From an uncultured Brevibacillus sp. (GTDB lineage: Bacteria; Bacillota; Bacilli; Brevibacillales; Brevibacillaceae): DNA of 64,000 bases. Of the stretch, positions 12,353 to 45,629 are shown one piece after another. The position numbers were made by a program, and so were the translations under genes. Positions within the stretch are counted from its first letter, which is position 1, and the number at the start of each line of letters is the position of its first letter. The notes under the pieces were generated by a model. It saw only the letters and a program-made list of their open reading frames with translations, was not told the DNA's origin and did no database searches. Where the stretch lies: positions 1 to 64,000 of the forward strand of contig CAMIVR010000004.1 of the NCBI GenBank assembly GCA_946402065.1. The letters are read 5' to 3'.

Positions 12353-13033
12353 ATGAACGTGTCAATCCATCCTTCGGCGAGTGACCGCTTACCCGAATTC
12401 TCGCTTGGCATCCTCGAATACACGGACGTTGCAGTAAGCGACTCGCCAAAAAAACTGCAAGGCCGCATTAACCTGTATGTGGAGTCGTTGAAACTAGGGA
12501 CGCCGCTCTCCGCAATCAGTGAGATCAAAGGCGTGCAAAGCTGGCGAAGCGACTTCAAAAAGCTCGGCATCGACCCCTCCCGCTATCGTCCGTCCTCAGA
12601 AGCGCTGCTGCGTCGCCTTTTACAAGGAAATCCGTTTTTTTGGCTGAATTCAGCTGTCGATGTAAACAATTTCCTCTCCGTCTACCATGCCCTGCCGTAC
12701 GGGATCTACGACCGCAAGCAACTATCCGGCTCAGTCGTCTGCCGAATCGGCACACCTAGGGATACGTACCTGGGGTTGAATGGCCGGGAGATGGACATGC
12801 AGGGAAAACTGCTGCTCGCTGATGAAATCGGAGCTTTTGGCAGCCCGATCGTCGATTCCGCTCGTTCAAAAGTAACGGAGCAGACTACCGAGCTGTTGCA
12901 GGTGATCTTTTTTCATTCACAGCTCTTAAACGACGAGTGTGAGCAAATCCTCGGCTCTACTGCACGGATGTTTACGGAAATTAATGGCGGCGAAATCATT
13001 CGCCAAACTTTGGTAACTGCCTGCATAGCATAA
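12353..13033 (+). CDS. B3/B4 tRNA-binding-domain protein (PheT B3/4-like)
   Basis: SWRSDFKKLGIDPSRYRPSSEALLRRLLQGN; NNFLSVYHALPYGIYD. Confidence 0.85.
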   Translation: MNVSIHPSASDRLPEFSLGILEYTDVAVSDSPKKLQGRINLYVESLKLGTPLSAISEIKGVQSWRSDFKKLGIDPSRYRPSSEALLRRLLQGNPFFWLNSAVDVNNFLSVYHALPYGIYDRKQLSGSVVCRIGTPRDTYLGLNGREMDMQGKLLLADEIGAFGSPIVDSARSKVTEQTTELLQVIFFHSQLLNDECEQILGSTARMFTEINGGEIIRQTLVTACIA

Positions 13034-13094: not shown

Positions 13095-13784
13095 TTAAAT
13101 CTGACCGTTCACATACCGGGTGGACATGAATGCCTTCACCTCGCGATAGGCAACGTCTCCCTCGCACGCGGCCAACCGTCTGCCAATGATCCCGCTAAGT
13201 CTGGCAGCGGCAAAACTGTGCCCATGCAAGTTATAGCGCTGCACATCACCTGTGAGCTCCCGTGGATATCCGCAGCAAGCAAAGCGGTTGCCACCGAGAA
13301 AACGGTACTGTCCCGGCAACAGCTCGCCTGCTGTAACTGCCAAAACACCTTCAAATTCCGCAGGATAGGGCATGCCCCGTAGTTCATCCATCGCTGCTAC
13401 GACGATTATCCCGGTATCATGCGCTTCCCGGCACAGCGCTCGCAGCTCCTCGTGATCCTGTGTGCTGCCCAGACTCAGATTGACAATATCCATGTGATTG
13501 TCGATAGCCCATTCCAGTGCAGCGCACAGAACCGTTGGATAGGTTGCCAGTGTTTCATCAAAGACGCGCACAGCGTAAAGCTCACAGGCCGGCATTTCAT
13601 CGCGGATCGCTGCTGCCACGGCTGTCCCATGCCCCAGGCGGTCCCGGTAATCTGCACGCAGCTCCAATTGCATCGCTTTTCCCACCTGAATGGACACACC
13701 GCCTGCCACACCGCCGATGTGTGAGTGAAACGGGTTGATTCCACTGTCAATTACAGCAATTTTAACCGCTTTTTGCCGAGTCAT
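13095..13784 (-). CDS. QhpE-like S8 (subtilisin-type) protease, predicted QHNDH gamma leader peptidase
   Basis: Catalytic Asp AVIDSGINPFHSHIGG, His LGHGTAVAAAI, Ser HGHSFAAARLSG; no signal peptide; last gene of the QHNDH operon; overlaps the ABC gene end. Confidence 0.85.
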   Translation of the reverse strand: MTRQKAVKIAVIDSGINPFHSHIGGVAGGVSIQVGKAMQLELRADYRDRLGHGTAVAAAIRDEMPACELYAVRVFDETLATYPTVLCAALEWAIDNHMDIVNLSLGSTQDHEELRALCREAHDTGIIVVAAMDELRGMPYPAEFEGVLAVTAGELLPGQYRFLGGNRFACCGYPRELTGDVQRYNLHGHSFAAARLSGIIGRRLAACEGDVAYREVKAFMSTRYVNGQI

Positions 13785-15591
13785 ATAATGCCCCCTGTTC
13801 GACCCGCAGCTCACCGTGAGCCAAGTGCCATTTCGTCTCTACCCAATCAAGCGCACCCACGCGATGGCTAATGATCACCATGCTTCGCCCAGATAGCGCT
13901 TCCCGCAGCCGCTGGTAGATTTGCCTTTCTGTTGCACTGTCTACTTCAGATGTCGCTTCATCCAAAATATACAGATCGGCAGGAATGAGCAGGGTACGGG
14001 CCAATGCCAGACGCTGCCGCTGCCCCCCTGACAAAGAATAGCCTCGCTCGCCAACAACCGTTTCGTACGCGTCGGCAAGCTGCATAATCTCGTCGTGCAG
14101 GCCCGCCAATGTTGCCGCCTTGATGACTTCCTCCTCCGTCGCGTGCGGAGCGCCGAAACGAATATTTTCCAGGACTGACGCATGAAAAATATACGGCTGC
14201 TGTACGGCAACGGCAATTCGTTTGCGAATGCCTTCGACTGTTTTGCACGACAGCTCATCTTCGTCAAACACGATGCTTCCACTACTAGGCCGATACAGCC
14301 CTGTGATCAGGTGAATGAGCGTGCTCTTGCCTTGACCGCTGTCACCCGTCAGGGCCACAGCCTCGCCCGCATGCAGTGTGGCGGAAATGCAGCGCAACAG
14401 CGGCCGCCTTGCCTCATGGGCAAATGACACCTGCCGTAGCTCGAGTATGGGATGCGCAGGTTTATCTTGCTCGTCTCCCCTGACTGCTTGCCTTCGCTCC
14501 GGATTATTGCCAGCCTTCATTTCATCACAAACACTTTCATTCGTCGTTGCCGCAGTTGCCGCAGTTGCCACGCTTTTGCTCTCGGCAGCCTGGTTCCTCC
14601 CTTTGCCTACATGCCGTGTCTGATTCACCTCGTCGGCTTCATCAGGCAGCATAAGCAGCTCTTCCAGCCTTTTCAGTGAAACGCTCATGCGCTGGATGCG
14701 CAAAACCAGCCCGGCAAGGCTTTGGACAGGGCCAAAAATCCTCGCCTGATAGCCCGTAAAGGCAACCAATGCCCCGACAGTCATCTCCCCCGACAACACT
14801 TCGTACCCGCCCCAGGCAAAAATGATCAGCGTCGAGACAATGATCGCCATACGTGGAATCCCCTCTGCCACGGTTGTGATCCAGCTCAGTCGAAAGGAAC
14901 TTTCGTTGAGCTCCGCTACCTTTCGATCAAAATCATCGGCTACTCGCTGTTCAGCCGATAACAGCTTGATGATTGTGATGGCCTGCAGTCGCTCAATCAA
15001 AAAGCTTTGCAATAAACTGTTTTGCACGCGTAATGTGCCGCTTGTTTCAACGACATGCCTGCGAAAATAAAGCACGGAAGCAATCACGACAGGGAGAAAG
15101 ACCATACAGCTGATCGCCAGTCTGTAGTCCAGCCAAAACAGCATAAACCCGACAAAGAGGAACGTACTGACTTGGATAATCGCTTGCAGCACGACGTCGG
15201 TCAAGCCGCCTTGCACTTCAGCGGCATCGCCATTGAGCCTGGTGATGATATCCCCTGCCTTTGTTCGAACAAAGTACGCGTAATGCGTTCGCTCGACGCG
15301 CAAGACGATCGCTGTCCGCAAGTCTCTTAGCATCCGCAACGTAATTCGCAAATACCAGAGACTGTTCATGGCGGAGAGCAGATAACCTGTGATCATCAGA
15401 CAAAACGCAATCGTTACGATTTCAAACAGGGAGTGCGTACGGTTAATCAGCACACCGTCAATCAACAAGCTCGAAAAATAAGGATAACTGAGTGCGAGTC
15501 CGGTTGAGAGAAGCGACAGGAGCAATACTCCGGCAAGGGCAGGAAGATACGGCCTGACAAACGGGAAGAGCCATTTGTACCGGGTTTGCAC
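13762..15591 (-). CDS. QhpF-like ABC exporter (TMD-NBD fusion)
   Basis: 6-TM domain plus Walker A TGDSGQGKSTLIH, signature LSGGQRQRLALAR, Walker B LYILDEATS; GTG start with RBS GAGGGGGGAGG. Confidence 0.88.
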   Translation of the reverse strand: MQTRYKWLFPFVRPYLPALAGVLLLSLLSTGLALSYPYFSSLLIDGVLINRTHSLFEIVTIAFCLMITGYLLSAMNSLWYLRITLRMLRDLRTAIVLRVERTHYAYFVRTKAGDIITRLNGDAAEVQGGLTDVVLQAIIQVSTFLFVGFMLFWLDYRLAISCMVFLPVVIASVLYFRRHVVETSGTLRVQNSLLQSFLIERLQAITIIKLLSAEQRVADDFDRKVAELNESSFRLSWITTVAEGIPRMAIIVSTLIIFAWGGYEVLSGEMTVGALVAFTGYQARIFGPVQSLAGLVLRIQRMSVSLKRLEELLMLPDEADEVNQTRHVGKGRNQAAESKSVATAATAATTNESVCDEMKAGNNPERRQAVRGDEQDKPAHPILELRQVSFAHEARRPLLRCISATLHAGEAVALTGDSGQGKSTLIHLITGLYRPSSGSIVFDEDELSCKTVEGIRKRIAVAVQQPYIFHASVLENIRFGAPHATEEEVIKAATLAGLHDEIMQLADAYETVVGERGYSLSGGQRQRLALARTLLIPADLYILDEATSEVDSATERQIYQRLREALSGRSMVIISHRVGALDWVETKWHLAHGELRVEQGALYDSAKSG

Positions 15592-15606: not shown

Positions 15607-16602
15607 CTATTTGTAGTAGCACATGTACCCTGAAGCACACTTCTCCGGTGTTTTGCGAATCCGCACAGCTTTGTCTTTGACTTGTTGTTCAGGCATTCCG
15701 CTGCGAACGCTTTTCACGACTTCGGAAACCAACTGCACACTTGCCAGCTTTCGGTACGGAGATGCTTCCCGTCCGACGATTTTTAGCGAATCCACTCCGA
15801 TCGCGTGCAGTCTGGGAAGTGCACACAAGCCGCAGGGGCCAAGCGGCAGCCCTTCTGCCGATAAACTGCAGCCGCAACTGTTGGTATACCAGACAAACTC
15901 GCGGTACTGCTGCAAATGACGTTCGAGTTTCGCGGTTTCCTTTTCAGAAAACTGAGACTCGTTATTTGAAGGGCTCCAAACGAACTCCCAATTGTCCGTC
16001 GTGCAAAACGCCCCTACCTGATTATGGCTGGTAAAGCAAAAGCTCTCCTCATAGACGCAGCCGTCATTTAAAATAAACACCTCGTACTCCAGCTGCGGTC
16101 CGCCAGCCTCAATCATCTCACTGATCTCATCGAGGTGCAGGCTGCGCGGAAAAACGATCCGGCTGGCCCCCAGCTGTCGGTACAAGTCCACACTGAAGCG
16201 GTTGGTCGGCGCTGCCAGACTGCTGACATGAATTACAGCATCAGGCAGACGCGATTTGATCGCCAGCATCAGCCCGATGTCGCTGACGATGTACGCATCG
16301 GCGCCAAGCTGGTCTGTTTCCAGCACCATCTCGAGTATACTCGGCAGCTGCTCGGCCGTATAATAGGGCGCGTTCAGCGCAATAAATACGGGCGCGCCAT
16401 GCGCATGAGCGGATTCAATCAACTGAGCAAACTCTTCGTAGGACGGCAGGCTGGCTTGCGGATTGCGCCGATTCATCCAGACTCCTGCGGAGAATTTCTG
16501 TATCCACTCCCGGGGGAGTACGCCACAGTAAAATTCCTCTGCTCCGTTGGCCGCTAACATTTCCACTTCATCCACGCTGCTAATGGGAGCCAGTACTTTC
16601 AT
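15607..16602 (-). CDS. U32-family protein, UbiU-like, in QHNDH operon
   Basis: GLCALPRLHAIGVDSLKIVGREASPYRKLA U32 signature; NDGC-x6-C-x9-C and SCGC..PCGLC cysteines; N-term MKVLAPISSVDEVEMLAANGAEEFYCG. Confidence 0.85.
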   Translation of the reverse strand: MKVLAPISSVDEVEMLAANGAEEFYCGVLPREWIQKFSAGVWMNRRNPQASLPSYEEFAQLIESAHAHGAPVFIALNAPYYTAEQLPSILEMVLETDQLGADAYIVSDIGLMLAIKSRLPDAVIHVSSLAAPTNRFSVDLYRQLGASRIVFPRSLHLDEISEMIEAGGPQLEYEVFILNDGCVYEESFCFTSHNQVGAFCTTDNWEFVWSPSNNESQFSEKETAKLERHLQQYREFVWYTNSCGCSLSAEGLPLGPCGLCALPRLHAIGVDSLKIVGREASPYRKLASVQLVSEVVKSVRSGMPEQQVKDKAVRIRKTPEKCASGYMCYYK

Positions 16603-16632
16603 CGCTCTTCTCCTCTCTGCTGCTTCGTATCA

Positions 16633-17571
16633 CTAGACCGGAATACGCGGGCTATAGACGAGCCGACAAGCCTGATTGGCACGGGCAAAATGAACCCCCG
16701 CCTCAATTTGTTCCAAGGTCTGCTGATAAAACACGGAGTTGCCCTTTTGAAATACGCGCTGCGGGAGGTCAGAAATTCGCGGATGTCGATTGACCATCTC
16801 CGCCGTATAGCGACGGCATTGCTGCTTGCAGACGATGTGCCCACGAAATTTATCTTGTTCTTCGACATGCAGACTGCCGACAAGACAGGTTCGCCCAGTA
16901 GCGACACAGCCAAAGCCAAGGTGCACCGCCAAAGCGAGGTCGTCCTCCTCAGCCAAGTCCCACTCAATACCCTGCAGCGTGTTGTCAAGCTCGATCATCT
17001 GCACGCCAGCCTCGCGCAAAAACGTCCGAAACGCATTTTGCGTAAAACTAGCCTGTTTTAGTGCCGTATTCGCTTGTACTGGCGCGCCGCTGCGATTATA
17101 GTGCTGGGTCACGCGGGGATCGCGAATCATTTTATTGAGCAACCGTCCAAGCACTGGTTTATAGCACGGATAATGTTGCTTGAGATGGTTCAGCACGCCC
17201 CAGTCATTGACGACCACCTCGACGGTTGCCACTCCATCCCGCTTCAGTCGCTCGGCAAGCGCAGCCAAACAGCTGGCCAACCGCTGCAAGCCAGATTGCG
17301 GCAGATAAGGCGTGACAAACGTAAACGCGTAGCCCGCTTCCCTGCTTGCCTCGTAGGCACGAAGCAGATCTTCCGCATCCACAAGCCGGTAGTGGCAAAA
17401 TTCCGAGCCAAAATAAAGTCGCTCGGGTACAGATTTACCCACCACTCGCTTCACCGCCGTCCTGATCGACTGCGCTGTTTCCTGCTCCACTGCTGTGAGC
17501 TGGGGCGCACTCCACGGCAAGTGAAGCAAACCCAAATCCTCTACTGATTGGACGGATATTGCAAGCTGCAT
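16633..17571 (-). CDS. U32-family protein, UbiV-like, in QHNDH operon
   Basis: YFGSEFCHYR (compare UbiV YLGETVCSKR), GCVATGRTC ... VCKQQCRRY (compare UbiV SARCFTAR...CETCC); C-term RLVYSPR. Confidence 0.8.
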   Translation of the reverse strand: MQLAISVQSVEDLGLLHLPWSAPQLTAVEQETAQSIRTAVKRVVGKSVPERLYFGSEFCHYRLVDAEDLLRAYEASREAGYAFTFVTPYLPQSGLQRLASCLAALAERLKRDGVATVEVVVNDWGVLNHLKQHYPCYKPVLGRLLNKMIRDPRVTQHYNRSGAPVQANTALKQASFTQNAFRTFLREAGVQMIELDNTLQGIEWDLAEEDDLALAVHLGFGCVATGRTCLVGSLHVEEQDKFRGHIVCKQQCRRYTAEMVNRHPRISDLPQRVFQKGNSVFYQQTLEQIEAGVHFARANQACRLVYSPRIPV

Positions 17572-17616: not shown

Positions 17617-18711
17617 TCACTGTGCAATCTGCACGACGTGAACGTCCATCGTATCTGACGGCAAATCGAGCACCTTTTCATACGCCATCGTCGCTGCGTT
17701 GATGAACGAAATATCCGGTCCGCCGCCGGAAACATAGACGGTTTTGCCGTCACCGCTAATGTTGTAGCCATAAGACGTACCTACTTTGGACTGAAGGGTT
17801 TTGACAGCTTTGCCTGTCTTCAGATCGATTTTAAAAATCAGGTTCTCGCCGCCATAGGCATACTTTTTATCAGGCGAAACGACAACGGAGAACAGCCCCA
17901 GTAACGTATCGAGCTTGTAGTCTTTCATTTCCGCAGTCTTGCGGTCCATCATGAATATGTGTTCCTCCAGATTGCCGCTCGTAGGGAAAAATTTCACCAA
18001 CCCGGCAGTGATTGAATTGGCACTGTCACGGTCCCGCGTCCACAGATAGAGATAGCTCGCGATGCCTTGCTTGTCCGGATCAGCCGGATTCATCAATTCT
18101 TCCACTTTTTTCATTTGATCGGTTTCTGTGTCGAGCATGTACAAGTCCTTAGCCCATACAACCAGCCGCTTGCCATCCTCTAAAAACTGCAGTGTATGGG
18201 CCAACACCGGTGCGTCTATCTCTTTGACCACTTGCTTCGTCTGCAAGTCCATAACTGCGATAATCGGTTTGAGCCGGATCAATTCAGCGGACTTGCGCTG
18301 TGTCCGCATCAGTGTCGCATACAGCTTGTTGCCGGCTGGATCCACTGCAAGTCCGTAAATACGCGAAGTAATTTTCTGGTCCGGCTGATTAAACGATACT
18401 GTATCGACGACTTTGTTCTCAATCGTATCCACGATGGCTACTTCCTGCCGCTGTGCGCTGTTAATGAACAGACGGTGCCCATCCCCCGTCCAGGTGAAAT
18501 CGCGGTTTGGGCCTTTGATCGAATACTTGGCTACCATTTCCCGCTTGACGGGATCGATCGCATAAGTCGCATCGTACCCTGTGATATAGAGCATCTCACG
18601 CGTAGAAGCCGCTTGGGAAACGTCTTGTTTGGCAAACAAGCTGCCGCAGATGACCATGCTGACAAGTCCCGCCACGGCCAGCAGCTTGCCTGCTCCCTTC
18701 ACTCGTGCCAT
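17617..18711 (-). CDS. Quinohemoprotein amine dehydrogenase beta subunit (beta-propeller)
   Basis: Signal peptide; YVTN-like repeats (MLYITGYDATYAIDPVKREMVAKYSIKG, GNKLYATLMR, KTVYVSGGGPDISFINAATMAYEKVLDLPSD); operon context. Confidence 0.88.
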   Translation of the reverse strand: MARVKGAGKLLAVAGLVSMVICGSLFAKQDVSQAASTREMLYITGYDATYAIDPVKREMVAKYSIKGPNRDFTWTGDGHRLFINSAQRQEVAIVDTIENKVVDTVSFNQPDQKITSRIYGLAVDPAGNKLYATLMRTQRKSAELIRLKPIIAVMDLQTKQVVKEIDAPVLAHTLQFLEDGKRLVVWAKDLYMLDTETDQMKKVEELMNPADPDKQGIASYLYLWTRDRDSANSITAGLVKFFPTSGNLEEHIFMMDRKTAEMKDYKLDTLLGLFSVVVSPDKKYAYGGENLIFKIDLKTGKAVKTLQSKVGTSYGYNISGDGKTVYVSGGGPDISFINAATMAYEKVLDLPSDTMDVHVVQIAQ

Positions 18712-18727: not shown

Positions 18728-20188
18728 CTAAGTGTTGTTGCTGCTGCAGGCGCCAGAGCCGATCATGCGGTCCAGATAGTCCGGATTTTGCTCCATGAGG
18801 CGGACGTACGTCTTCAGCCCAATCGTCGTCCACCGCAGCATCCAATTGCAGTAATGCAGATTCGGCGCCAGGATATCGCCTTGTCGTTCCCGCGCCTCGT
18901 AATAGCAGCCGCCTGCACAGCTGTGAACGAGAGCGCAGCGCGAGCAGGTCGTCTTGTTATCCACGTGCAGCTCGCTCAACAGCTTTTGCTGAAAATCTCT
19001 GTTGATCCCCTTGTAGATGTCACCCATACGGACCGTGCTGTCTTCGTTGAAGCGATGGCACAAGTACAGCTCGCCGCTTGGTGACACTGCCATAAAACCA
19101 AGCCCTGCCCCGCATCCATACGCTTTTGTCTGACCGCTGTGCAAATCTGCAAGCAGATTGGTCAAGTTGGAAAAGCCGAGAAACCCATTGTTCGCGGCTG
19201 CCGCGACGAATTCATCGGCGAGCTCGGCAAATTGCTCCAACAGCCGCATCATTTCCGGGCGCGCCAGCATCATTTCCTCATCTGTCTCCGTCACCGGTGC
19301 AAAGCCTACCTCGTGAAAACCCAACCCGCGCAAATGCTGCAGGGTCTCACGCACGTGTGGAAAATCCCTCGTCAACGTCACGCGTGCCGCTACTGGCCTG
19401 CCCGTCTTCTCTGCAACCAGCTTGCGCACATTGGCGCTGACCAGCCGATACGAGCCCGCTCCGCTTTTCAGCGGACGCCATTTGTCCTGTGTCGCCTCAT
19501 CGCCATCCATGCTCACGCTTACACCGATCTGGTGATCGCGGATAAACGCGATCCGCTCGTCATTCAACAGCGTCCCGTTGGTGGTCAGCGAAAAGCTTAT
19601 CCGCTTTCCGCAGCGGCCGGCTTCACGTTCCCCGTACTCGACAATGTGTTTGAGCTGCGGCCAGTTGAGAAAAGGCTCTCCGCCAAATAAAATGACAGAG
19701 ACTTCCTCTAATTGCCTTGACTCGCGCAATAAAAAATCGATCGCGTCCTCAGCCGTTTCCCGACTCATCAACTTTTGTGGTGCGCCGTATTCGCCACTGC
19801 CGGCATAGCAGTAAGAACAGCCCAGATTGCAGGAATTGACCAAATGGAAGACCAGTGTGGCGAGCGGTAGTTTGGAAGAGACTGGTACGGGTGGCGTACG
19901 CATGAGCGGCCCCTTGTTCTCCCCTGTGACGTACAAAACACCTGACTGGATCAGTTCATCTATCGCCTCTGCCAGTTCTGACGGGCTTGCCAGATCACTG
20001 AGACTGCTATAGAGCGCCTGTCGCTCAATGGCCTGATTCGCTTTCATCGCATGGATGATTTTGCTCGCCAAGCCGTCCAGCTGTGTAATGACCCCGCTTA
20101 ATCCTTGATACAAATACGGGCGGCCGTCCACCTCGAAAGCGATGTGATTGGATAAAACAACGGCTGAGCGATCCATTAGTACGGTCAT
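18728..20188 (-). CDS. QhpD-like radical SAM/SPASM enzyme (gamma-subunit thioether cross-linking)
   Basis: Radical SAM NSCNLGCSYCYAG (CxxxCxxC), SPASM cysteines CSRCALVHSCAGGCYYEAR..HYCNW; start set at ATG 20188 with GGGAGGGGG RBS. Confidence 0.92.
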   Translation of the reverse strand: MTVLMDRSAVVLSNHIAFEVDGRPYLYQGLSGVITQLDGLASKIIHAMKANQAIERQALYSSLSDLASPSELAEAIDELIQSGVLYVTGENKGPLMRTPPVPVSSKLPLATLVFHLVNSCNLGCSYCYAGSGEYGAPQKLMSRETAEDAIDFLLRESRQLEEVSVILFGGEPFLNWPQLKHIVEYGEREAGRCGKRISFSLTTNGTLLNDERIAFIRDHQIGVSVSMDGDEATQDKWRPLKSGAGSYRLVSANVRKLVAEKTGRPVAARVTLTRDFPHVRETLQHLRGLGFHEVGFAPVTETDEEMMLARPEMMRLLEQFAELADEFVAAAANNGFLGFSNLTNLLADLHSGQTKAYGCGAGLGFMAVSPSGELYLCHRFNEDSTVRMGDIYKGINRDFQQKLLSELHVDNKTTCSRCALVHSCAGGCYYEARERQGDILAPNLHYCNWMLRWTTIGLKTYVRLMEQNPDYLDRMIGSGACSSNNT

Positions 20189-20216
20189 GGCGCTTCCCCC
20201 TCCCGGCTTTTGTGTG

Positions 20217-21902
20217 CTATTGAATGCGTGTGACAAAATCAGGTACGGTTGACAGCAAAAATGCTTCTGCATTCAGCACTTTTTTGCTCCCTGGTTCTTG
20301 ATACGTGGCGACGACGTTCACACTGCCTGTGTTGTTGGTGCTATACTCGCGTTTCGGGTTGGGGCCGCCGGCAGCGGGTGTAAACAGTCCGGTATCCGCA
20401 TCGAGTTTGCCGATGAACGCGAGATCGTGATCATTCTCTTCGCCTTGCAAATACTCTTTCATACTCCATTTCACCGGTACCGGACCTAGCAAGATGTCAT
20501 CAGCGGTGCCCGGCTTGCCATCCGGTCCAAATAGGTACGCATTGGCCTGGAACTGTACGCTTTGTCGATGCTCGCCGAGTTGTATGCGTCCGAGCCCGAA
20601 CTCCGGCGTAATTTTGAGAAAATCAACCTTGTCATAGACACGCAGACTCAGCTTATTTTCCACATCAGCAATGCCAATCGTCGCCTGCTCTGCTGTCTGG
20701 TTTGCCTTCACTTCAAGCCACAGATCATCACCCTGTTGACGGACGATTTTGCTTATGCTGATCGCTTGGTCTGTCGTAATTTGCTTGAGTGTCAATCCTT
20801 CCGGCAATTGATTGCCGATGAGATGAACGACTGTCGTCTGGCCTTTTTTCACACTGCGCGGCCATAGGTCAAATAGCTGTTTGCCGTCTGCAGCATAGTA
20901 GGTTTCATCGGCATACAGCCCGTTATCCCCGACTACGACTCGCGATCCGACGATGGTTTTCCCGTCAGCGCCAATATTGTAATAGCCCCGATAGCGCTGT
21001 TGCCCGTCTTGGCTGACTCGCAGCGAGTAGCCGCTGTACAGTGTCGCCTGACCTTTGTTCGTCTCTTTGACCCCATTGATCTCCACAGTACGCTCCTCAG
21101 TGAACGCATCGCCTTCCCCGCTAAAGACAGCGTTTCCGGAATACATTCCGTCTTTTGGCGAGATGCCGACAATTCGCCAGTTTCCGCTTGGATTGAGCGC
21201 CTTGCCCGATTGCTTCCACTGATTGTACTCCGGATTATCAAACGGGTACTTCTCCGCCAAATACTTCAGCAACTGTGCTGACACTTCATCCCAATCCACG
21301 TCCCGGACCTGGTACAGTTGGGAAGGGTTGTAAGCGACGTGGAAATCCTTCAGCTTGTCCCATTCCTCTGGCGTCCGCCGCTGGGCAAAAGGCTGACCGA
21401 GCGAATGACAGCGGATACATGTTTGTTCAAAACGCGGGTCTGGAATATCCTCCATCGTTGAGCCCCGCTTTGTCACCCAGTACATCACCGACTCCATTTC
21501 ACTTGGCGCCAAACCGTTTGTTTTGCTCAAGTCCTGAACCAGCTGTTTCTTCTCTTCAGGAGTAATTTGCAATCCCCAGGAATGCTCCATCCGATAAATC
21601 GTCGCATCCCATCCCTCCGGCGTTTTGCGAATGTCACTGATCCGCTCGACACGCTGCCCATCCGTTGCGTGACAAGTAAGGCACTTCTTCTGCGTCAGCT
21701 GGCTGAGCTCGCCTGTATACGCTGACGCCTGCGCCACCTCTGTCGGCGGTTGGGCAGCATCTGTCGGCGTCTGTTCGCCATTATTTTGTGGAGTGGTAGC
21801 TTGTGGCTGCTTTTCTTCGGGTGCGCACCCCCAGACGAGCAGCATGATCGCTAGCAGCCCTGCTATCAGGATACTGACTCGATTTTGCTTTCTCTTGTTC
21901 AT
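20217..21902 (-). CDS. Quinohemoprotein amine dehydrogenase alpha subunit (diheme cytochrome c), predicted lipoprotein
   Basis: Lipobox LLVWGC; two heme motifs CLTCH and CIRCH; WNTP-like C-terminal beta domains; operon context. Confidence 0.92.
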   Translation of the reverse strand: MNKRKQNRVSILIAGLLAIMLLVWGCAPEEKQPQATTPQNNGEQTPTDAAQPPTEVAQASAYTGELSQLTQKKCLTCHATDGQRVERISDIRKTPEGWDATIYRMEHSWGLQITPEEKKQLVQDLSKTNGLAPSEMESVMYWVTKRGSTMEDIPDPRFEQTCIRCHSLGQPFAQRRTPEEWDKLKDFHVAYNPSQLYQVRDVDWDEVSAQLLKYLAEKYPFDNPEYNQWKQSGKALNPSGNWRIVGISPKDGMYSGNAVFSGEGDAFTEERTVEINGVKETNKGQATLYSGYSLRVSQDGQQRYRGYYNIGADGKTIVGSRVVVGDNGLYADETYYAADGKQLFDLWPRSVKKGQTTVVHLIGNQLPEGLTLKQITTDQAISISKIVRQQGDDLWLEVKANQTAEQATIGIADVENKLSLRVYDKVDFLKITPEFGLGRIQLGEHRQSVQFQANAYLFGPDGKPGTADDILLGPVPVKWSMKEYLQGEENDHDLAFIGKLDADTGLFTPAAGGPNPKREYSTNNTGSVNVVATYQEPGSKKVLNAEAFLLSTVPDFVTRIQ

Positions 21903-21932: not shown

Positions 21933-22250
21933 CTAATCCCCGACGAATTTTAACTTTTGCCAGTCGCGGACGGCAGCCGGACACTCTTCATGCCAGCTCG
22001 GGTACATGATCATGCCGTCCGGAACTTGTGCAGCCCACCAGCAATCGCCATAACAGCCGTACAAATCGCGTTCCAACGGCTGACATCCGCCGCCCAGCCC
22101 GACGCCGGTAACATCTGTTTCCCACCCCGGATCAAACACAGTCGTACAGCCCATCGGCAATTGCATACCAGCTACGACCATCGCTTCTCCAGCTTCGACA
22201 CGCCGCTGGATTCGCTTCGCCTTTTGGTTGATTCCTTTTACGTGTTTCAC
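21933..22250 (-). CDS. Quinohemoprotein amine dehydrogenase gamma subunit precursor (CTQ-bearing)
   Basis: GCTTVFDPGWETDVTGVGLGGGCQPLERDLYGCYGDCWWAAQVPD: conserved Cys/Glu/Asp/Trp spacing of QHNDH gamma; 28-aa N-terminal leader; GTG start with AAGGAGGGG RBS. Confidence 0.95.
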   Translation of the reverse strand: MKHVKGINQKAKRIQRRVEAGEAMVVAGMQLPMGCTTVFDPGWETDVTGVGLGGGCQPLERDLYGCYGDCWWAAQVPDGMIMYPSWHEECPAAVRDWQKLKFVGD

Positions 22251-22460: not shown

Positions 22461-23183
22461 TTGTCGCGTGAGTTCATTTTGATTGTGGATGACGAACAGG
22501 AAATCGGGGAGCTGTTGGGCAGATACCTGCATAAAGAAGGGTATACGTACGAGATCGCGCTCACCGGTTTGGACGGGCTGGAAAAGGCCCGGACGAAGCA
22601 GCCTGACCTGATCCTGCTTGACGTATTTCTACCGGACATCGACGGACATGAAGTATGCAGACAGTTGAGAACGTTTACAGACACGCCGATTCTCTTCCTT
22701 AGCTGCAAAGATACAGAACTGGACAAGGTCGTAGGCTTAAGCATCGGCGCAGACGACTACATCAGCAAGCCGTTTGGCATTAACGAACTGATGGCCCGAA
22801 TCAAAGCTCATTTGCGCCGAAGCAAAAAGCGCTCGCCAATCGCTGCCGCTGCAGCAGGCAGATCGTCGGATATGCTCGCTTCGGCCACGTTAACCGTCGA
22901 TTTGAAGCGGCATGAAGCCTATTTACATGGACATAAATTAATTTTGTCAGCCAAAGAGTTTCACCTGCTTGTCTTCCTGCTCAGCCATCCCAAGCAGGTG
23001 CTTAGCCCTGAGCACATCCTTGAGCAGGTTTGGGGATACGACTATGCCATTGATACCAAAACCGTAAAAGTCCACATTGGCAACTTGCGCAAAAAGATCG
23101 AAGACGATCCCCGCGAGCCGAAAAAAATAGTGACCATCCGAGGAGTTGGCTACCGTTTTGATGAAGAGATGGAAACTGCTTAG
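22461..23183 (+). CDS. OmpR-family response regulator (divergent to QHNDH operon)
   Basis: FILIVDDEQEIGELLGRYLHKEGY, LILLDVFLPDIDG, DDYISKPFG; wHTH C-terminus; TTG start. Confidence 0.94.
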   Translation: MSREFILIVDDEQEIGELLGRYLHKEGYTYEIALTGLDGLEKARTKQPDLILLDVFLPDIDGHEVCRQLRTFTDTPILFLSCKDTELDKVVGLSIGADDYISKPFGINELMARIKAHLRRSKKRSPIAAAAAGRSSDMLASATLTVDLKRHEAYLHGHKLILSAKEFHLLVFLLSHPKQVLSPEHILEQVWGYDYAIDTKTVKVHIGNLRKKIEDDPREPKKIVTIRGVGYRFDEEMETA

Positions 23184-25362
23184 CAGGATTCAGGCGGTCT
23201 GGAAATCGCTATCGTTTCGCATCTTGATTACGTTGCTGCTGATTTCTCTCACGCCAATTCTCCTGCTCGGCAACTATGTCATGCAGTCCTTCGAGGGCAC
23301 GCTGAACGCGATTGCCCTGCAGACAGGCGACATGATTTCTAGCGATATTACTATGCTGTACCAAAGCAATTTGAGCAGTCAAGTGAAGCTGATCAATCTT
23401 GAGTTTGAAACGATCCAGCAAAACGTGATCGCGATTAGAGCAATGGCCCAGGACATTTACGACAATCCGCAAAAATACCCGTATACCAACGCCCACAGCT
23501 TGGTCAAATCCGACTTCGACTACTACTGGGAAAAGGACTACGGCAAAAATGAGTCCAATACCGGAGCAAACAGCTTTGTCAAGCTGACACCGGAATTTAC
23601 CGAACGACTGTCGCGCAGCAAGTATTTGGAGCCGCTCTTCCGCCAAACCATGCAGATGAATGACAACATTTCGGCGATCTATTTTATTTTACCCGATTCC
23701 GCCTGGCGAATTTATCCTGCGGTCAACTTGCAACAAGAGATCGATGGCGATTTTTTCTCCACTTCTACCGCGATCACGTCCTATCCGTTTTATCAAATGG
23801 CTCTGCCCTCCAAAAACCCCTCCCGCAAGGCGGTTTGGACAGATCCTTACCTGGATATTACCCATCGCGGCTGGATGTTTACTTGTTCTGTTCCGGTCTA
23901 CAGCAAAGACAACACCTTGCTTGGGGTCATCAGCGCCGATGTCACAATCGACAATCTGATCACGAACATTCTCAACACCAAATTCAACCATCCCAATGCC
24001 TATGCTTTTTTAATCAGCCGGAATGGGGAAAAAATCGCCGTTCAAAAGCAGGGCGAGGATGACTACCCTTCACTGCCGGTCGAACAAATTTTAGCTGACA
24101 AATCCTACAGTGAATTGCCCAGGCTCACTTACCTCGACAGAGACCGGATCATGCTGAGCACGGAAATTCCCGCGACCAATTGGTACTTAGGGTACGTCAT
24201 CTCACAAGAGGCTCTGATCGGCCCCATTTACACCAAAACGAACGACAACATCCTCAAGATCGGCAACCGCATGATCGGACAAATGACCCTTTTGTCCCTG
24301 TTTTTATTGATCGTTTGCATCGTCATTACACTGCTGTCGTGGCGCAACATCGCCGGACCGACGAAAAAACTGATCCGCGCCATCTCGGCCATGCGCGCAG
24401 GCAACTTGAATGTCAGCGTTCCCGCCAACGCGATCAGGGAATTTGATGAAGTCTCGCAAGCATTCAATGCCATGTCCCAGCAAATCAATCACCTGGTGCA
24501 AGCGCTCGACCAACGCCTCAAGGAAAAAGAGGAGCTGCAAGCGGAGTTGGTCGGCTTGAATCGACAACTGGAATCCAAAGTGCAAAAACGTACAGAAGAG
24601 CTTAAACAAGCCAATGAAATTCTTGTCTCGACCAATGAACAGCTAAAAAGCGTCGAAGCGTCGCGTTCCACGTTTTTTTCGCATATTTCCCACGATTTGA
24701 AAACGCCGCTAACGCTTATATCCGGCTACATCGAAGCGATACAGGATGGCGTGATTACGGAGGACGAAGAGGAGCTTTATCTGGAAAAAATCAAACAACG
24801 GATCGCTTCCGTCAATCGCTTGGTACACGATCTCAATGAGCTGAGCATACTCGAAACGCGATCGAAAACATTGCCGTACAAGAAGAGAAAAAGCGTGTAC
24901 GATCTGTATGCAACTGTCCAAAATAAATGGAGCTTCTCTACAAAAGACCAGCGGCAGGCCATTCAGGTCATCCTTGACGATTCCCTTCAGGAACTATCGC
25001 AGCTGCTCGTTTTGGAGATCGATCAGGAGTACATCCATCGGGCCATCGACAATCTCGTCGAAAATGCGCAAAAATACAGCGAGAGCAAAGAACCGATTGT
25101 CATACGCTTTTCTCATTCGGAGCCGTTTCTCGCCATCTCTGTACAAGATGTCGGCTCTGGTATTGCCAAAGAGCACTTGCCGCACCTGTTTACGCGCTCC
25201 TACCGTGTGGACAAGGCCCGTAATTCCGCGATCCCTGGCAATGGGCTTGGACTTGCCATCGCACGCGAAATCGTTGAAGCGCATCACGGTCGCATTTTCG
25301 TTAAAAGTGAACTAGCGAAAGGAACGGTTTTTACTATCCTGCTGCCGCTTATAGATGGTTGA
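23161..25362 (+). CDS. Sensor histidine kinase (dCache-like extracellular domain, HAMP, HisKA, HATPase)
   Basis: FSHISHDLKTPLTLISGYIEAIQ; GNGLGLAIAREIVEAHHG; two TM segments; overlaps RR stop by 23 nt. Confidence 0.93.
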   Translation: MKRWKLLSRIQAVWKSLSFRILITLLLISLTPILLLGNYVMQSFEGTLNAIALQTGDMISSDITMLYQSNLSSQVKLINLEFETIQQNVIAIRAMAQDIYDNPQKYPYTNAHSLVKSDFDYYWEKDYGKNESNTGANSFVKLTPEFTERLSRSKYLEPLFRQTMQMNDNISAIYFILPDSAWRIYPAVNLQQEIDGDFFSTSTAITSYPFYQMALPSKNPSRKAVWTDPYLDITHRGWMFTCSVPVYSKDNTLLGVISADVTIDNLITNILNTKFNHPNAYAFLISRNGEKIAVQKQGEDDYPSLPVEQILADKSYSELPRLTYLDRDRIMLSTEIPATNWYLGYVISQEALIGPIYTKTNDNILKIGNRMIGQMTLLSLFLLIVCIVITLLSWRNIAGPTKKLIRAISAMRAGNLNVSVPANAIREFDEVSQAFNAMSQQINHLVQALDQRLKEKEELQAELVGLNRQLESKVQKRTEELKQANEILVSTNEQLKSVEASRSTFFSHISHDLKTPLTLISGYIEAIQDGVITEDEEELYLEKIKQRIASVNRLVHDLNELSILETRSKTLPYKKRKSVYDLYATVQNKWSFSTKDQRQAIQVILDDSLQELSQLLVLEIDQEYIHRAIDNLVENAQKYSESKEPIVIRFSHSEPFLAISVQDVGSGIAKEHLPHLFTRSYRVDKARNSAIPGNGLGLAIAREIVEAHHGRIFVKSELAKGTVFTILLPLIDG

Positions 25363-39639: not shown

Positions 39640-40467
39640 ATGGTTAAATCCCCTCTTAGGTACCCTGGTGCCAAGAAGAAAGTTCTTAATCGATTCACCC
39701 AGTTTTGGGAAGTCCCTCATGTAGAGTACAGAGATGTTTTTGTTGGCGGAGGATCTACTTTTTTTGGTAAACCTGAATGTCCGAGAAACTGGTTGAATGA
39801 TTATGATGAAGAAATCGCGGCTTTCTTTATCTCAATGAGAGACTATCCTGAAGAACTTTGTAATTTAGTCATGTCTACAAAACCAACAGTTGAACTATGG
39901 AGACAAATAAAGGATAGAGATTTAAATACGGATTTAGAGAAAGGGTTCAGGACCTTGTTTTTAAACCGTACGACATTTAGCGGAATACTGAAAGGAAATC
40001 CAATTGGTGGGATTGAGCAAAAAAGCAAATATACTATTGATTGCCGCTGGAATCCTGTTGCATTGTGCGAACAAATTCGTTTGTGTAGTGAAATGCTACA
40101 AGGAGTTACAATCACAGCCTTAGATTTTTCAAGCGTAATTCAAGAAGCTGGAGAAAATGTTCTACTTTATCTTGATCCTCCTTATTACCACAAAGGAAAC
40201 CTCCTTTATCGTCAAGGGATGACGCACGAGGATCATGTAAGACTCTCCGATTTGCTAAAAGATACTGAACATAAATTTTTTATAACTTATGATGATTGTG
40301 AGGAGGTAAGAGAACTATACCAAGAATGGGCTTACCTGTACCCAGCATCTTGGTTTTATAGTAGTTCAAATAAAAAAGCTAGAGAAGTCGGCAAAGAACT
40401 ATTCATTTCTAACTTCATGATTTCTGAGCAAATTGCATGTAATTTTGGTATAGGAGGAGAAAATTAA
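39640..40467 (+). CDS. D12-class (Dam-like) N6-adenine DNA methyltransferase
   Basis: SPLRYPGAKKKVLNRF, FVGGGSTFFG, LLYLDPPYYHKGN. Confidence 0.93.
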   Translation: MVKSPLRYPGAKKKVLNRFTQFWEVPHVEYRDVFVGGGSTFFGKPECPRNWLNDYDEEIAAFFISMRDYPEELCNLVMSTKPTVELWRQIKDRDLNTDLEKGFRTLFLNRTTFSGILKGNPIGGIEQKSKYTIDCRWNPVALCEQIRLCSEMLQGVTITALDFSSVIQEAGENVLLYLDPPYYHKGNLLYRQGMTHEDHVRLSDLLKDTEHKFFITYDDCEEVRELYQEWAYLYPASWFYSSSNKKAREVGKELFISNFMISEQIACNFGIGGEN

Positions 40468-43400
40468 TGGAAATATCAAAGTTAATTAGACTAATTGAAC
40501 AAGAAATCACTGAAGTCGGAAAAACCGCCAAATCGGAAGAAGATGTACGACTAGGTTGCGAAAGTATTCTTAAAAATCACTTGCCTCAAATAGGAGTTCA
40601 ATATGATGCCAGATATGAAGTCACAGTAAGTAATGGCCGTATAGATGCCTTGTTCCATCATTTGATCACTGAATATAAAGAGCCTGGAAAACTAGCTACA
40701 AGAAATGGTTATGACCGGGCAACTGAGCAAGCTTTACAATATATTGAAAATCTAGCTAAAGAGAATAAGGAATCAACTGATAAATATATTGCAGTTTTAT
40801 TGGATGGAAAAAATATTGGATTTGTTAGATTTAATCAATCTAACAAAAAAATAATATCTCCTCTACTGCCCATCAACTTTGAATCAATTCGATTGTTTTT
40901 GAAATATATACACTCACTAAATTATAAAGCTTTAACGACATCTAATGTACTATCTGATTTTGGGCCTCAGAGTAAAATAACTGGCAATGTTATAAGAGCA
41001 CTATGGTCACGCTTTCAGAATCATCGGGATACACGTACATCTATGTATTTTACCGAATGGCGCAGATTGTTTGGACAAGTATCAGGTTTCGGTCAATTTA
41101 CTGGCCCTGAACATGGTGTTAATAGTATTGCAAAGCAATTAGGAATAGATATAAATAAAAAACCTGCTGAGTTCATCTTTGTTCTCCATACCTATTATTC
41201 CATTCTCATAAAATTAATCGCAGTCTTTATCATAGAGAACGCTAAAGAAACAAGTGGAATTTACAATACATTTAAGACGTCTTCTTTAGAAGAAAAAAAA
41301 TCTATGATTGAATCAATGGAAAATGGTACTATTTTTAGACGGTTAGGAATAACAAACTTTTTAGAAGGTGACTTCTTTGCTTGGTATCTTAATGAATGGG
41401 ATGAAAGCTCTGCCGCGGCAATACTAGAGGTACAAGAATGCTTATGTGACTATGAGCCTTCTACCCCATCACTTATGCCAGAATCTGTACGTGACTTATT
41501 AAAAACTTTGTATGAGCGACTGTTACCAAAACAAATTAGGCATGACTTAGGGGAATTTTATACTCCCGACTGGCTTGCTCACTATACTATTAATGCATCA
41601 GGATTTCTACCATCTGATAAAATACTCGATCCTACTTGTGGATCAGGAACTTTTTTAGTTCTATGTATAAAAGAAAAAATAGATCAATTACAAAAGGTAA
41701 TGAGTCCAGATGCACTTGTAAAACACATTTTATCCCATGTCTATGGATTTGACTTAAATCCATTAGCGGTTATTGCAAGCAGAACGAACTATCTACTTGC
41801 GCTCGGTGATCTATTAGGATATGCAGATGGTGATATAGAAATTCCTGTCTATCTAAGCGATGCGATTCTATCACCACAAAAGCAAGATAAAGGATACACT
41901 TATCGTATCGAAACTACAATGGGTCCAATTGAACTAATAATTCCAGATCAAGTTGTTTCAAATGGCTTTTTAGGAACAGTACTTATTCAAGTGGAAGAAC
42001 TAATTATTCAAACAGCTGAACAATTTTGTACACAAGAACAGGCTAGAAAACATCTTAAAGAGAGTATGATTAGGCTCGGATTATCTGAAAGCATATCTGA
42101 TATTGTAAAGTTATATGATGATATCATGGAGCTTGAAAAAAAGAATTGGAATAGAATTTGGTGCAGGATAATCAAAAATCACTTCAGTTCTGCAACTTTA
42201 AAGAATTTTGATGTTATTGTTGGAAATCCTCCATGGTTGCGTTGGACTAATCTTCCTGATATATATAGAAACTCTATCAAGGAATTTTGTGTGAATTACG
42301 GTCTCTTCTCCAAAGATAGATTTGTTGGTGGAATCGAGACTGACATATCAACAGTTATTTTGTACTCAACTGCCGAGAAATGGTTAAAACAGAATGGTAA
42401 GTTAGCCTTTCTAATAACAAGAAGTGTTTTTAAAACAGAATCATCTGAAGGATTCCGTAAATTTGAAATCCCAAATGACAGGAAAACAAAATTTAGAGTT
42501 ATGAAAGTGGAGGATTTTACAAGCATAAAACCTTTCGAGGGTGCGACCAACAAACCTGCCTTAATCCTTCTTGAAAAAGGAAATAAAAACACTGAATATC
42601 CTGTTCCGTGGATTGTTTGGAGCAAAAAAAACAAGAACCGTATCTCAGATGATTCCTCCCTTCAAACAGTCATTGATAACACAATTAGATCTGAAATGTC
42701 TGCCTACCCTATATATGCAGATGGTGGACCTTGGTTAACCTTAACTCCCGAGTATGTTGATCAATGTATACAATTAATTAATCGTCAAGGAGAACACAAC
42801 TATCCTGCAAGAAAAGGAATATGTACAGATAGGAACGGGATCTATTACGGAGCAATTCTTGATAAAAGGGGGCGGACAGATGTAATTTTCGAGAACAACC
42901 CTGACCTTGGAAGAACAACTGGTATTCCCATCATTCGTTCGATACTAGAAAAGGATCTAATCTATCCCATTGCTCGAGGAAGAGAAGTATCCTCGTTTCA
43001 ATGGGAATTCGGGAATGTTTATGGAATAGTTCCACAAGATAAAATGGATGGTTTTCCCGAGGATTTTATGAGGTTAAACTACAATAAAACACTACGTTTT
43101 TTTAGAGAGTTTGAAAATAATGAAGTTCATCACTTAACAACACGTGGGAGCTTTCGACGCTATCAAGCAAAGCGCAATGCTCCGTTCTACTCTTCTTGGA
43201 ATGTTGGTGAGTATACATTTGCACCTTATAAAGTCGCATGGTCTGAAATATCTGGAAGTTTCCAAGCTTGTGTATTATCCAGTATATCAAGTCCTTATTG
43301 GGAAACAAAAAGAATTGTTATCCCTGATCATAAGTTATATTTTGTTCCTCTTTACTCTGAATCTGAAGCTCATTTTCTCTGTGCCTTATTAAACGCTCCG

Positions 43401-43604
43401 CAAATAGAAGAGTTTGTAATGGGATATGTTGAAACTACACAAATCGGAACGCACGTCACAGAATACCTTAATTTACCAAAATTTGATGAGTCAAATGATT
43501 ATCATCAGGAATTATCACAGCTGTCTTTAAATGCCCACCACGATAATAATCTTGTTCAATCTACTCGAGAAAAAATTTCTCGTCTTCTTCATAAAATAAT
43601 CTAA
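40467..43604 (+). CDS. Type IIG-like restriction-modification enzyme (N-terminal nuclease-like domain, N6 MTase)
   Basis: N-term PD-(D/E)XK-like GRIDALFHHLITEYKEP; MTase ILDPTCGSGTFLVLCI, FDVIVGNPPWLRW; TAATG overlap with Dam-like gene. Confidence 0.82.
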   Translation: MEISKLIRLIEQEITEVGKTAKSEEDVRLGCESILKNHLPQIGVQYDARYEVTVSNGRIDALFHHLITEYKEPGKLATRNGYDRATEQALQYIENLAKENKESTDKYIAVLLDGKNIGFVRFNQSNKKIISPLLPINFESIRLFLKYIHSLNYKALTTSNVLSDFGPQSKITGNVIRALWSRFQNHRDTRTSMYFTEWRRLFGQVSGFGQFTGPEHGVNSIAKQLGIDINKKPAEFIFVLHTYYSILIKLIAVFIIENAKETSGIYNTFKTSSLEEKKSMIESMENGTIFRRLGITNFLEGDFFAWYLNEWDESSAAAILEVQECLCDYEPSTPSLMPESVRDLLKTLYERLLPKQIRHDLGEFYTPDWLAHYTINASGFLPSDKILDPTCGSGTFLVLCIKEKIDQLQKVMSPDALVKHILSHVYGFDLNPLAVIASRTNYLLALGDLLGYADGDIEIPVYLSDAILSPQKQDKGYTYRIETTMGPIELIIPDQVVSNGFLGTVLIQVEELIIQTAEQFCTQEQARKHLKESMIRLGLSESISDIVKLYDDIMELEKKNWNRIWCRIIKNHFSSATLKNFDVIVGNPPWLRWTNLPDIYRNSIKEFCVNYGLFSKDRFVGGIETDISTVILYSTAEKWLKQNGKLAFLITRSVFKTESSEGFRKFEIPNDRKTKFRVMKVEDFTSIKPFEGATNKPALILLEKGNKNTEYPVPWIVWSKKNKNRISDDSSLQTVIDNTIRSEMSAYPIYADGGPWLTLTPEYVDQCIQLINRQGEHNYPARKGICTDRNGIYYGAILDKRGRTDVIFENNPDLGRTTGIPIIRSILEKDLIYPIARGREVSSFQWEFGNVYGIVPQDKMDGFPEDFMRLNYNKTLRFFREFENNEVHHLTTRGSFRRYQAKRNAPFYSSWNVGEYTFAPYKVAWSEISGSFQACVLSSISSPYWETKRIVIPDHKLYFVPLYSESEAHFLCALLNAPQIEEFVMGYVETTQIGTHVTEYLNLPKFDESNDYHQELSQLSLNAHHDNNLVQSTREKISRLLHKII

Positions 43605-43625
43605 GAAACCTAGTATTCATAAGTT

Positions 43626-43656
43626 GAGCAGTTAGATTTCACTAACTGCTCATTAT
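43626..43656. terminator. Bidirectional terminator between type IIG and GajB-like genes
   Basis: Perfect 10-bp arms GAGCAGTTAG (43626-43635) / CTAACTGCTC (43642-43651). Confidence 0.8.
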
Positions 43657-43679
43657 TCTTCATGCCAAAAGGTATTGTA

Positions 43680-45629
43680 CTAACAGTACTCAAAATCATA
43701 AAACTTTTCTTTTCCATTCTTTTTACAGTACTCTTCAAGAACTCGATCAATACTTCCCGAAATTTCCTCATCACCATTTAAATGTATATATAGTTTGTTT
43801 CTAGCTCTACTCGCAGCAACATATACTATTCTTGTGAACTCCTCGTACTTCTTTTCGTAATCAGTGGTTGAATTTCCAAAAATAATAGGATTGCATAAAA
43901 CGTTTAGAGGAGAACATTCTTCGGAGTCCAGCCTATCAGCCCGTTCAATATTAATAAGTACATTATCAAACTCTGCTCCCTTAGCTTTGTGTATTGTCAT
44001 AAACCTACTATTTTCCGAAAATATTTCACAGCAAATTTTCTTTGACGTTATATACTGTAACTTATCGATATATTTGTATACCCCTTCGTAATAATCATCG
44101 TCACCTTCAAAAGGATATCTGAGATAGGATTTTACTGGAATTTCCAAATCATCTATCAATTCATTAATTCTCATTATTAAATCTTTGAGCAATATAGCAT
44201 TATCAATATAGCTATTTACATTCTCCCAAAATGTAAAGACTCTTTTCAATAATAAGTTGTTTTCCTGATTAAAACTTCGATATGAAGGTTCGATGTTAAA
44301 GTATTTTTCAAATACTGTAAACGCACTCGGTATGCATTTCCTACTGAATGCTTCTTCAAGTTCATTAATAGCTAGCATAGATTCAATCCATGCTTCCCTT
44401 TTTGCTTCAATCTCATTTTCTAATTTTCTTCCCATCTGGTATGAGTAGGCATTTATTATGTTGTTTACTAACCTACGTTGATCCTCATCAATGTTACTGA
44501 TATACTTTAACACCTCAGACCATTTTCTGCATAAAAATACTGTGTTCCTTTCAAGTATTGTTTCAAGAGGTTTAGAAAAATTGCTTTTACTTCTCTGCAT
44601 TAAAAAGGTTACTTTATGTTTATTTTCAAAGTTTAATTCACAAGTCTGCTCATTTAATTCAATGTCACCTTGCCGCAAGAAATTTAAGAAATTAATTATA
44701 TTCTGGGTACTTCTTCTGTTCCCTTTTATCACATAATTTTCAATTGGTAGACTTGAAGATAAATTAAAATTATGAAACTCCCTGTAATCGGCCCCTTGAA
44801 AAGAATAAATGGATTGGGCTACATCACCAATTACAGCTACAATAGATTCTTTCTCTGAAAGAATTCTAACAATCTTATTTTGAATTGGATTCGTGTCCTG
44901 ATATTCATCAATTAGAATATATGGAAATTCACACCTGATAAGATGTGTTGAAAGTTCATAATTCTTAAGAATTCTATAACCAAAATATAGAATCTCATCA
45001 AAGGTCAATCTGCCTGCCTCACCCCAAATATATTTTTTTACAGCTACGGCTACTTCTTGCGTTATGTTCTGATGATATTTCAAGCAAATACCAGTACTTT
45101 CGCTCATATATCCAGAGTTTAATAAAGTAATGTCAATCTGGACGTCCGCCATTTTATTGCGTGATAAATCATTATATAGATTAGAAGGGATTAATGGGTA
45201 GTTTCTCTCAAGATAACTATAAATATCTTCTTTTTTGTGACCACTTAAAACTGAAAATCCTTCTTGTACCGAAACTATTTCTTTGTTTTTATCTATTAGC
45301 AAACCAAATTCTTCTTTTATAATTTTTTTTAATTGGACCTGATTAGGTTTGATTATATATTCATTTATAAAAGAGTGAATGGTTGATACAACTACGTTAT
45401 GATTAAATGCTCCTAATCTGTTTTGAATCTGTTCAACAGCAACATTTGTATACGTAATACAAAGTATTTTCCGAAATTCACTCTGAAGTTTGGCGCTATG
45501 CTGGACCATCTGCTTTATATTTTCAATTAATAAATGAGTCTTTCCAGCTCCTGGACCAGCATATATTTTCAGATGCCTATTATTATCATAGATCCGTAAA
45601 TCATCAGAAGAGTTTATTTCCTGAGCCAT
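43680..45629 (-). CDS. gajB: UvrD-like helicase, Gabija GajB-like
   Basis: KIYAGPGAGKTHLLIENI, PYILIDEYQDTNPIQNKIVRIL, FMTIHKAKGAEFDNVLI, IVYVAASRARNKLYIHL; overlaps upstream OLD gene by 16 nt. Confidence 0.82.
   Translation of the reverse strand: MAQEINSSDDLRIYDNNRHLKIYAGPGAGKTHLLIENIKQMVQHSAKLQSEFRKILCITYTNVAVEQIQNRLGAFNHNVVVSTIHSFINEYIIKPNQVQLKKIIKEEFGLLIDKNKEIVSVQEGFSVLSGHKKEDIYSYLERNYPLIPSNLYNDLSRNKMADVQIDITLLNSGYMSESTGICLKYHQNITQEVAVAVKKYIWGEAGRLTFDEILYFGYRILKNYELSTHLIRCEFPYILIDEYQDTNPIQNKIVRILSEKESIVAVIGDVAQSIYSFQGADYREFHNFNLSSSLPIENYVIKGNRRSTQNIINFLNFLRQGDIELNEQTCELNFENKHKVTFLMQRSKSNFSKPLETILERNTVFLCRKWSEVLKYISNIDEDQRRLVNNIINAYSYQMGRKLENEIEAKREAWIESMLAINELEEAFSRKCIPSAFTVFEKYFNIEPSYRSFNQENNLLLKRVFTFWENVNSYIDNAILLKDLIMRINELIDDLEIPVKSYLRYPFEGDDDYYEGVYKYIDKLQYITSKKICCEIFSENSRFMTIHKAKGAEFDNVLINIERADRLDSEECSPLNVLCNPIIFGNSTTDYEKKYEEFTRIVYVAASRARNKLYIHLNGDEEISGSIDRVLEEYCKKNGKEKFYDFEYC

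Follow-up and report, generated by a model that had tools for sequence, protein, structure and literature searches.

The window analysed here is a stretch of 64,000 nucleotides from an uncultured Brevibacillus sp. Open reading frame and family searches of the window placed a complete QHNDH operon on the minus strand, from 22250 to 13095, with the gene order gamma, alpha, QhpD, beta, U32B, U32A, ABC exporter and QhpE. The operon begins with qhpC (21933–22250), which encodes a gamma subunit precursor of 105 aa (NCBIfam QH_gamma, 146 bits, cut-off 50), followed by qhpA (20217–21902) for the diheme alpha subunit (TIGR03908, 388 bits, cut-off 274). The genes for the radical SAM, thioether-forming maturase, qhpD (18728–20272), and for the beta-propeller beta subunit, qhpB (17617–18711), were assigned by their best family, with 444 bits for TIGR03906 (cut-off 453) and 80 bits for TIGR03907 (cut-off 223), respectively, and in the case of qhpB also by its position in the operon; the true start of qhpD is probably inside this ORF. 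At the distal end, a qhpF-like ABC exporter gene (13762–15591) carrying PF00664 and PF00005 lies beside qhpE, as it does in qhp loci; qhpE itself (13095–13814; NF049966, 167 bits, cut-off 165) encodes the subtilisin-like protease that removes the gamma leader. The NCBIfam and Pfam searches thus found alpha, beta, gamma, QhpD, QhpE and the ABC exporter all together in the window. This bears out the QHNDH operon context given in an earlier note on this DNA, gamma, alpha and QhpE being over their cut-offs and QhpD and beta being recognised as best family. A terminator-like hairpin directly 3′ of qhpE (12988–13005, minus strand) came from a consensus scan and is weak, since the region has about as many of these sites as shuffling leads one to expect.

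Directly upstream of gamma and divergent from the operon, a response regulator and a sensor kinase are encoded on the plus strand (22461–25362), and they may stand in for the AraC-type regulator of Paracoccus. Elsewhere in the window, the GC content of positions 40001–48000 is 0.31–0.35, compared with about 0.47–0.54 in the rest, which suggests foreign DNA.

Two U32-type proteins

Two adjacent ORFs fill the space between beta and the ABC exporter on the minus strand, exactly as the earlier note had described: U32B (312 aa, 16633–17571) and U32A (331 aa, 15607–16602). The gaps are 45 bp from beta to U32B, 30 bp from U32B to U32A and 15 bp from U32A to the ABC gene. The motifs quoted for these proteins, YFGSEFCHYR, GCVATGRTC, VCKQQC and PCGLCALPRLHAIGVDSLKIVGRE, are all present in the window ORFs.

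U32A is a true U32-family protein. It scores 123 bits with PF01136 (cut-off 22.4), is homologous to TrhP and RlhA (hhalign E about 1e-18 to 1e-21), and its predicted structure has the U32 protein 5D88 as its best match among solved structures. Its scores with the NCBIfam models of UbiU (88 bits, cut-off 440) and TrhP (80 bits) stay far below the cut-offs, and in a small tree a 100/100 branch parts the qhp U32A proteins together with one Roseburia relative from E. coli UbiU, TrhP and RlhA. Eight cysteines (26, 182, 189, 200, 257, 260, 322 and 328) are invariant in 23 of 23 homologues. The first cysteine motif reads NDGC-x6-C-x10-C, so that the last spacing had been given one residue too short (x9) before. 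Among the homologues C-x6-C is retained and the following spacing ranges from 9 to 13; the cluster motif of UbiU is C-X6-C-X16-C-X38-C and that of UbiV is C-Xn-C-X12-C-X3-C (PMC6747719). The eight invariant cysteines, among them C257-x2-C260 and C322-x5-C328, are four more than one cluster needs, and the additional ones could hold a second metal site.

U32B is, as judged by profile comparison, a remote UbiV homologue. It finds no NCBIfam match, and it stays under the Pfam U32 cut-off (13.5 bits, E 0.04), yet PF01136 is its top family. Set against nine aligned UbiV proteins, U32B gave an E-value of 6e-7 and a probability of 92% over 223 columns at 17% identity, with the four cluster cysteines matched; in the control comparison with the alignment of short QhpG proteins (see below) the E-value was 0.6. 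Significance was reached only with the nine-UbiV alignment and not with E. coli UbiV alone. The assignment of both genes to the U32 family therefore holds for U32A by Pfam, whereas U32B misses the Pfam cut-off and joins through the UbiV profile. The cysteines of U32B are laid out as C59-x169-C229-x18-C248-x3-C252, all four being invariant in 24 of 24 homologues with the spacings of 18 and 3 fixed. Of the UbiV-type four-cysteine layout previously proposed for this protein, all four cysteines are present, aligned and invariant, but the middle spacing is 18 rather than the 12 of UbiV. As to the UbiV motifs given for comparison in the earlier note, SARCFTAR and CETCC occur in E. coli UbiV, while the first reads YLGEAVCSKR and not YLGETVCSKR. 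The predicted structure of U32B (pLDDT 86) alternates strands and helices, and a Foldseek search of the PDB returned generic barrel matches only, none of them informative.

Distribution of the pair and of QhpG

The flavin monooxygenase QhpG takes the QhpD-crosslinked peptide as its substrate, in a ternary complex, and dihydroxylates the tryptophan of cysteine tryptophylquinone (CTQ); the two oxygen atoms derive from O2 (PMC7876137). A short, diverged form of QhpG, of about 335 aa, is encoded in QHNDH genomes of Acidobacteriota and Novosphingobium. The two members scored reach 55–66 bits with NF049967, far below the cut-off of 240, so the family is missed by the curated cut-off and probably overlooked by annotation. 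A profile for it was built from alignment A5, with 13 rows (L069, L076, L093, L066, L060, L004, L087, L053, L079, L047, L073, L057 and L061). In Novosphingobium, the short QhpG gene lies between beta and the ABC gene, which is the slot of U32B–U32A in the window.

The 5.84-Mb genome of the window (99.7% complete, 8% contamination) was searched for QhpG with the Pseudomonas QhpG protein, which is over the NF049967 cut-off, with NF049967 itself and with the short-QhpG profile. The protein query gave zero matches at E-values up to 10, and neither family model matched this genome, although both matched other genomes in the same searches. On these searches, a QhpG hidden elsewhere in the genome was rejected. 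The absence of an FAD monooxygenase from the operon, as the earlier note had it, extends to the whole contig, on which no flavin monooxygenase was found. Other flavoproteins do exist in the genome; the best FAD_binding_3 match (L006) is FixC-like and was rejected as QhpG at 48 bits against the cut-off of 240.

How widely the pair takes the place of QhpG was examined in 80 QHNDH loci fetched with the gamma subunit alone, a selection independent of U32 and QhpG, with as much as 20 kb of surrounding sequence. Adjacent U32B and U32A genes lie within the qhp locus in 23 of the 80, from four phyla, namely Bacillota, Nitrospinota, Acidobacteriota and Pseudomonadota. The pair is not there by chance, because it recurs with the same cysteines in the QHNDH loci of all four. 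The taxa are Bacillus, Neobacillus, Brevibacillus, Aneurinibacillus, Nitrospinota and several Acidobacteriota, together with Magnetospirillum, Phaeospirillum, Telmatospirillum, Terasakiella and a betaproteobacterium; U32B is partly present at the edge of one more locus (L072). Some of the remaining loci carry QhpG or short QhpG, and the 26 with neither system were followed up in the whole genomes, where short QhpG was found elsewhere in 19 and canonical QhpG in 3. If the two systems are alternatives, the four genomes left over would be expected to carry the U32 pair unseen. This held for three (G027, G028 and G033), which have U32B with U32A adjacent, elsewhere in the genome, in G027 and G028 behind a second QhpD–gamma copy; the fourth, a 3.2-Mb Deltaproteobacteria MAG (G044), has neither system. 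In these two Blastocatellia, G027 and G028, the second clusters (L100 and L101) run QhpD–gamma–U32B–U32A–ABC and exist besides the loci L029 and L030. Two Acidobacteriota contigs also show unusual arrangements, with tandem gamma/beta copies in L068 and two oppositely oriented qhp clusters in L069.

Altogether, 27 of the 74 QHNDH genomes have U32B only, 43 QhpG only, 3 both and 1 neither, so that U32B and QhpG nearly exclude each other, with a Fisher p of 9e-16 (without correction for relatedness). The correlation between U32 presence and QhpG absence that the earlier note had proposed to look for in a neighbourhood survey is thereby found, as is the lack of a QhpG homologue in the window's genome. 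The genomes with both systems are G024 (L072), in which the same contig carries U32B and QhpG no more than about 10 kb apart, G056 (L059) and G051 (L031). The QhpG-like gene of G051 is among CoA-ligase-like genes, and its product may do something other than QhpG.

Two single classes were also surveyed. The window's class, with 396 genomes, has U32B in exactly the 7 genomes that have gamma and in 0 of the 389 others. The Acidobacteriota class that holds Bryobacter G015 has gamma in 36 of 319 genomes. U32B is present in 10 genomes of this class, all with gamma, and short QhpG in 22, 21 of them with gamma, while the two occur together in 0 of 319 (for the 36 with gamma, a hypergeometric p of about 1e-5). 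Five gamma genomes of this class have neither U32B nor short QhpG; G046, the one checked, has canonical QhpG.

In a tree of QhpD from 78 loci, a minimum of 6 switches between U32 and QhpG is needed. Two loci of the U32 type, from Bryobacter (L034) and Bryobacteraceae (L054), branch from within short-QhpG lineages, and that of the betaproteobacterium (L036), likewise of the U32 type, is paired with a Pseudomonas of the QhpG type. QhpG never shifted in the same direction as U32 in the five independent pairs, a number too small for significance (sign-test p of 0.06–0.125). The anaerobic ribonucleotide reductase NrdD, the sole lifestyle marker used, is not enriched (3 of 26 U32 genomes versus 1 of 25 QhpG genomes) and therefore gives no tie of the pair to anaerobic life.

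The substrate of the pathway is preserved whichever system is present. The CTQ residues of the window's gamma precursor are Cys66 and Trp72 (Cys37 and Trp43 in mature numbering). Both CTQ residues as well as the six thioether residues are kept in 26 of 26 U32-type and 48 of 48 QhpG-type loci, and no gamma residue discriminating the two types rose above the threshold. Since U32-type gammas keep the CTQ and cross-link residues, the cofactor and hydroxylation of its tryptophan are still required without QhpG.

Candidate role in CTQ biogenesis

By what means, then, is this tryptophan hydroxylated where QhpG is missing? We consider it likely that U32A–U32B replaces QhpG in CTQ biogenesis, as the earlier note had proposed. 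This is well supported by the census correlation, its replication within one class, the at least 6 changes on the QhpD tree and the lack of QhpG in the window's genome. UbiU and UbiV form a heterodimer with one [4Fe-4S] cluster each (PMC6747719). Its hydroxylation of ubiquinone precursors proceeds without O2, also when air is present (PMC10470549), and for U32 hydroxylases prephenate has been proposed as the oxygen donor (PMC11574389). By homology and position, U32A–U32B would be an Fe-S hydroxylase of the CTQ tryptophan, that is, a two-protein, Fe-S-dependent enzyme of the UbiU/UbiV type specialised for QHNDH maturation. In the proposed order of events, QhpD would first close the thioether bridges in gamma. 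U32A–U32B, presumably a heterodimer with one [4Fe-4S] cluster per partner, would then hydroxylate Trp72 (mature Trp43) without O2, its probable oxygen source being an organic donor; prephenate, which has been proposed for other U32 hydroxylases, is one candidate. Export of the peptide would come next, followed by removal of its leader by QhpE, whereupon Cys66 (mature Cys37) would bond to the oxidised tryptophan. We infer the Fe-S binding, the heterodimer, the tryptophan substrate, the two hydroxylations and the order of the steps; the O2-independence and the prephenate donor are drawn by analogy with known U32 hydroxylases. The stronger claim, that the pair is the first U32-type Fe-S hydroxylase acting on a protein and takes the two oxygens that it adds to the CTQ tryptophan from an organic donor (e.g. 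prephenate) and not from O2, is one we favour by a slight degree only.

An alternative interpretation might be that the pair does replace QhpG but catalyses only part of the reaction, e.g. one hydroxylation, and that the second oxygen and the oxidation to the quinone come from O2 or from self-processing in the periplasm. Two oxygens are needed, which QhpG introduces together within a single turnover (PMC7876137). Many of the U32 genomes are moreover Bacillus-type, with NrdD absent from almost all. On the other hand, a single ring is hydroxylated several times during ubiquinone synthesis in association with UbiU–UbiV, which makes a double hydroxylation by the U32 pair plausible, and we regard the partial reaction as unlikely. 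Less probable again, and in our view very unlikely, is that the pair is an accessory (a chaperone, an electron donor, an Fe-S supply or the agent of a second peptide modification) and that an unlinked, unrelated monooxygenase hydroxylates the tryptophan. Hydroxylation by the pair is indeed a proposal, and the genome offers other flavoproteins such as the FixC-like protein, but the latter is far from the QhpG cut-off (48 bits versus 240), and an accessory role leaves unexplained both the repeated alternation with QhpG on the QhpD tree and the absence of the pair from the 43 QhpG-only genomes. That the two proteins are peptidases trimming the gamma leader, as the Pfam name Peptidase_U32 would have it, is hardly credible, given that the known leader protease QhpE is already in the operon, that the cysteine layout is of the Fe-S hydroxylase type (PMC6747719), and that the pair alternates with a hydroxylase and not with a protease.

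If replacement of QhpG by an Fe-S hydroxylase is true, it would provide an O2-independent route to a protein-derived quinone, add proteins to the small molecules and RNAs on which U32 hydroxylases act, and explain the production of QHNDH where QhpG is absent. Such chemistry has precedents in ubiquinone and RNA; what would be new is its use on a protein and in the setting of QHNDH. No literature linking U32 proteins to tryptophylquinone was found in a search mostly outside subscription journals, and a search for U32 together with RiPP likewise gave no earlier report of such a link. As a substrate for U32 enzymes, the gamma subunit would also have the advantages of being a soluble protein that is modified at a single site and can be followed by mass spectrometry.

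A related U32B–U32A pair of 476 and 389 aa is encoded on a plasmid of the gut Clostridia member Roseburia sp. 831b (L105, 9299–11987), with profile E-values of 3e-31 (U32B-like) and 5e-57 (U32A-like). No QHNDH genes are annotated in the 20.7 kb read around it, where the neighbourhood is one of metal transport and a cysteine desulfurase; the wider pair family is therefore not confined to QHNDH. Should the reading of the qhp pair as a protein hydroxylase be true, pairs like that of Roseburia would suggest that O2-independent hydroxylases of proteins or peptides form a broader class.

Comparison with known systems

The pair resembles UbiU/UbiV in consisting of two neighbouring genes of the U32 type (about 330 and 300 aa), in the proposed task of hydroxylating an aromatic ring, and in the four cysteines of the UbiV-like partner, the first of which lies far upstream (C-Xn-C-X18-C-X3-C in U32B versus C-Xn-C-X12-C-X3-C in UbiV). 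It differs in that U32A has eight invariant cysteines, a spacing of x10 where UbiU has x16, and 88 bits against the UbiU cut-off of 440, and in that U32B is without an NCBIfam match and only 17% identical to UbiV. The context of the pair is QHNDH maturation rather than ubiquinone synthesis, and its substrate would be a protein. TrhP and RlhA are prephenate-linked RNA hydroxylases of the U32 family; their U32 domain is homologous to U32A, but their substrates are RNAs, and we know of no U32B-like partner for either. LodB and GoxB, the maturases of CTQ-containing oxidases, also serve CTQ formation but are QhpG-type flavoproteins and not U32 proteins. With QhpG itself the pair shares the functional position in the pathway and a nearly exclusive distribution, whereas the sequences are unrelated, and the FAD and O2 of QhpG stand against the putative Fe-S clusters and non-O2 donor of U32A–U32B.
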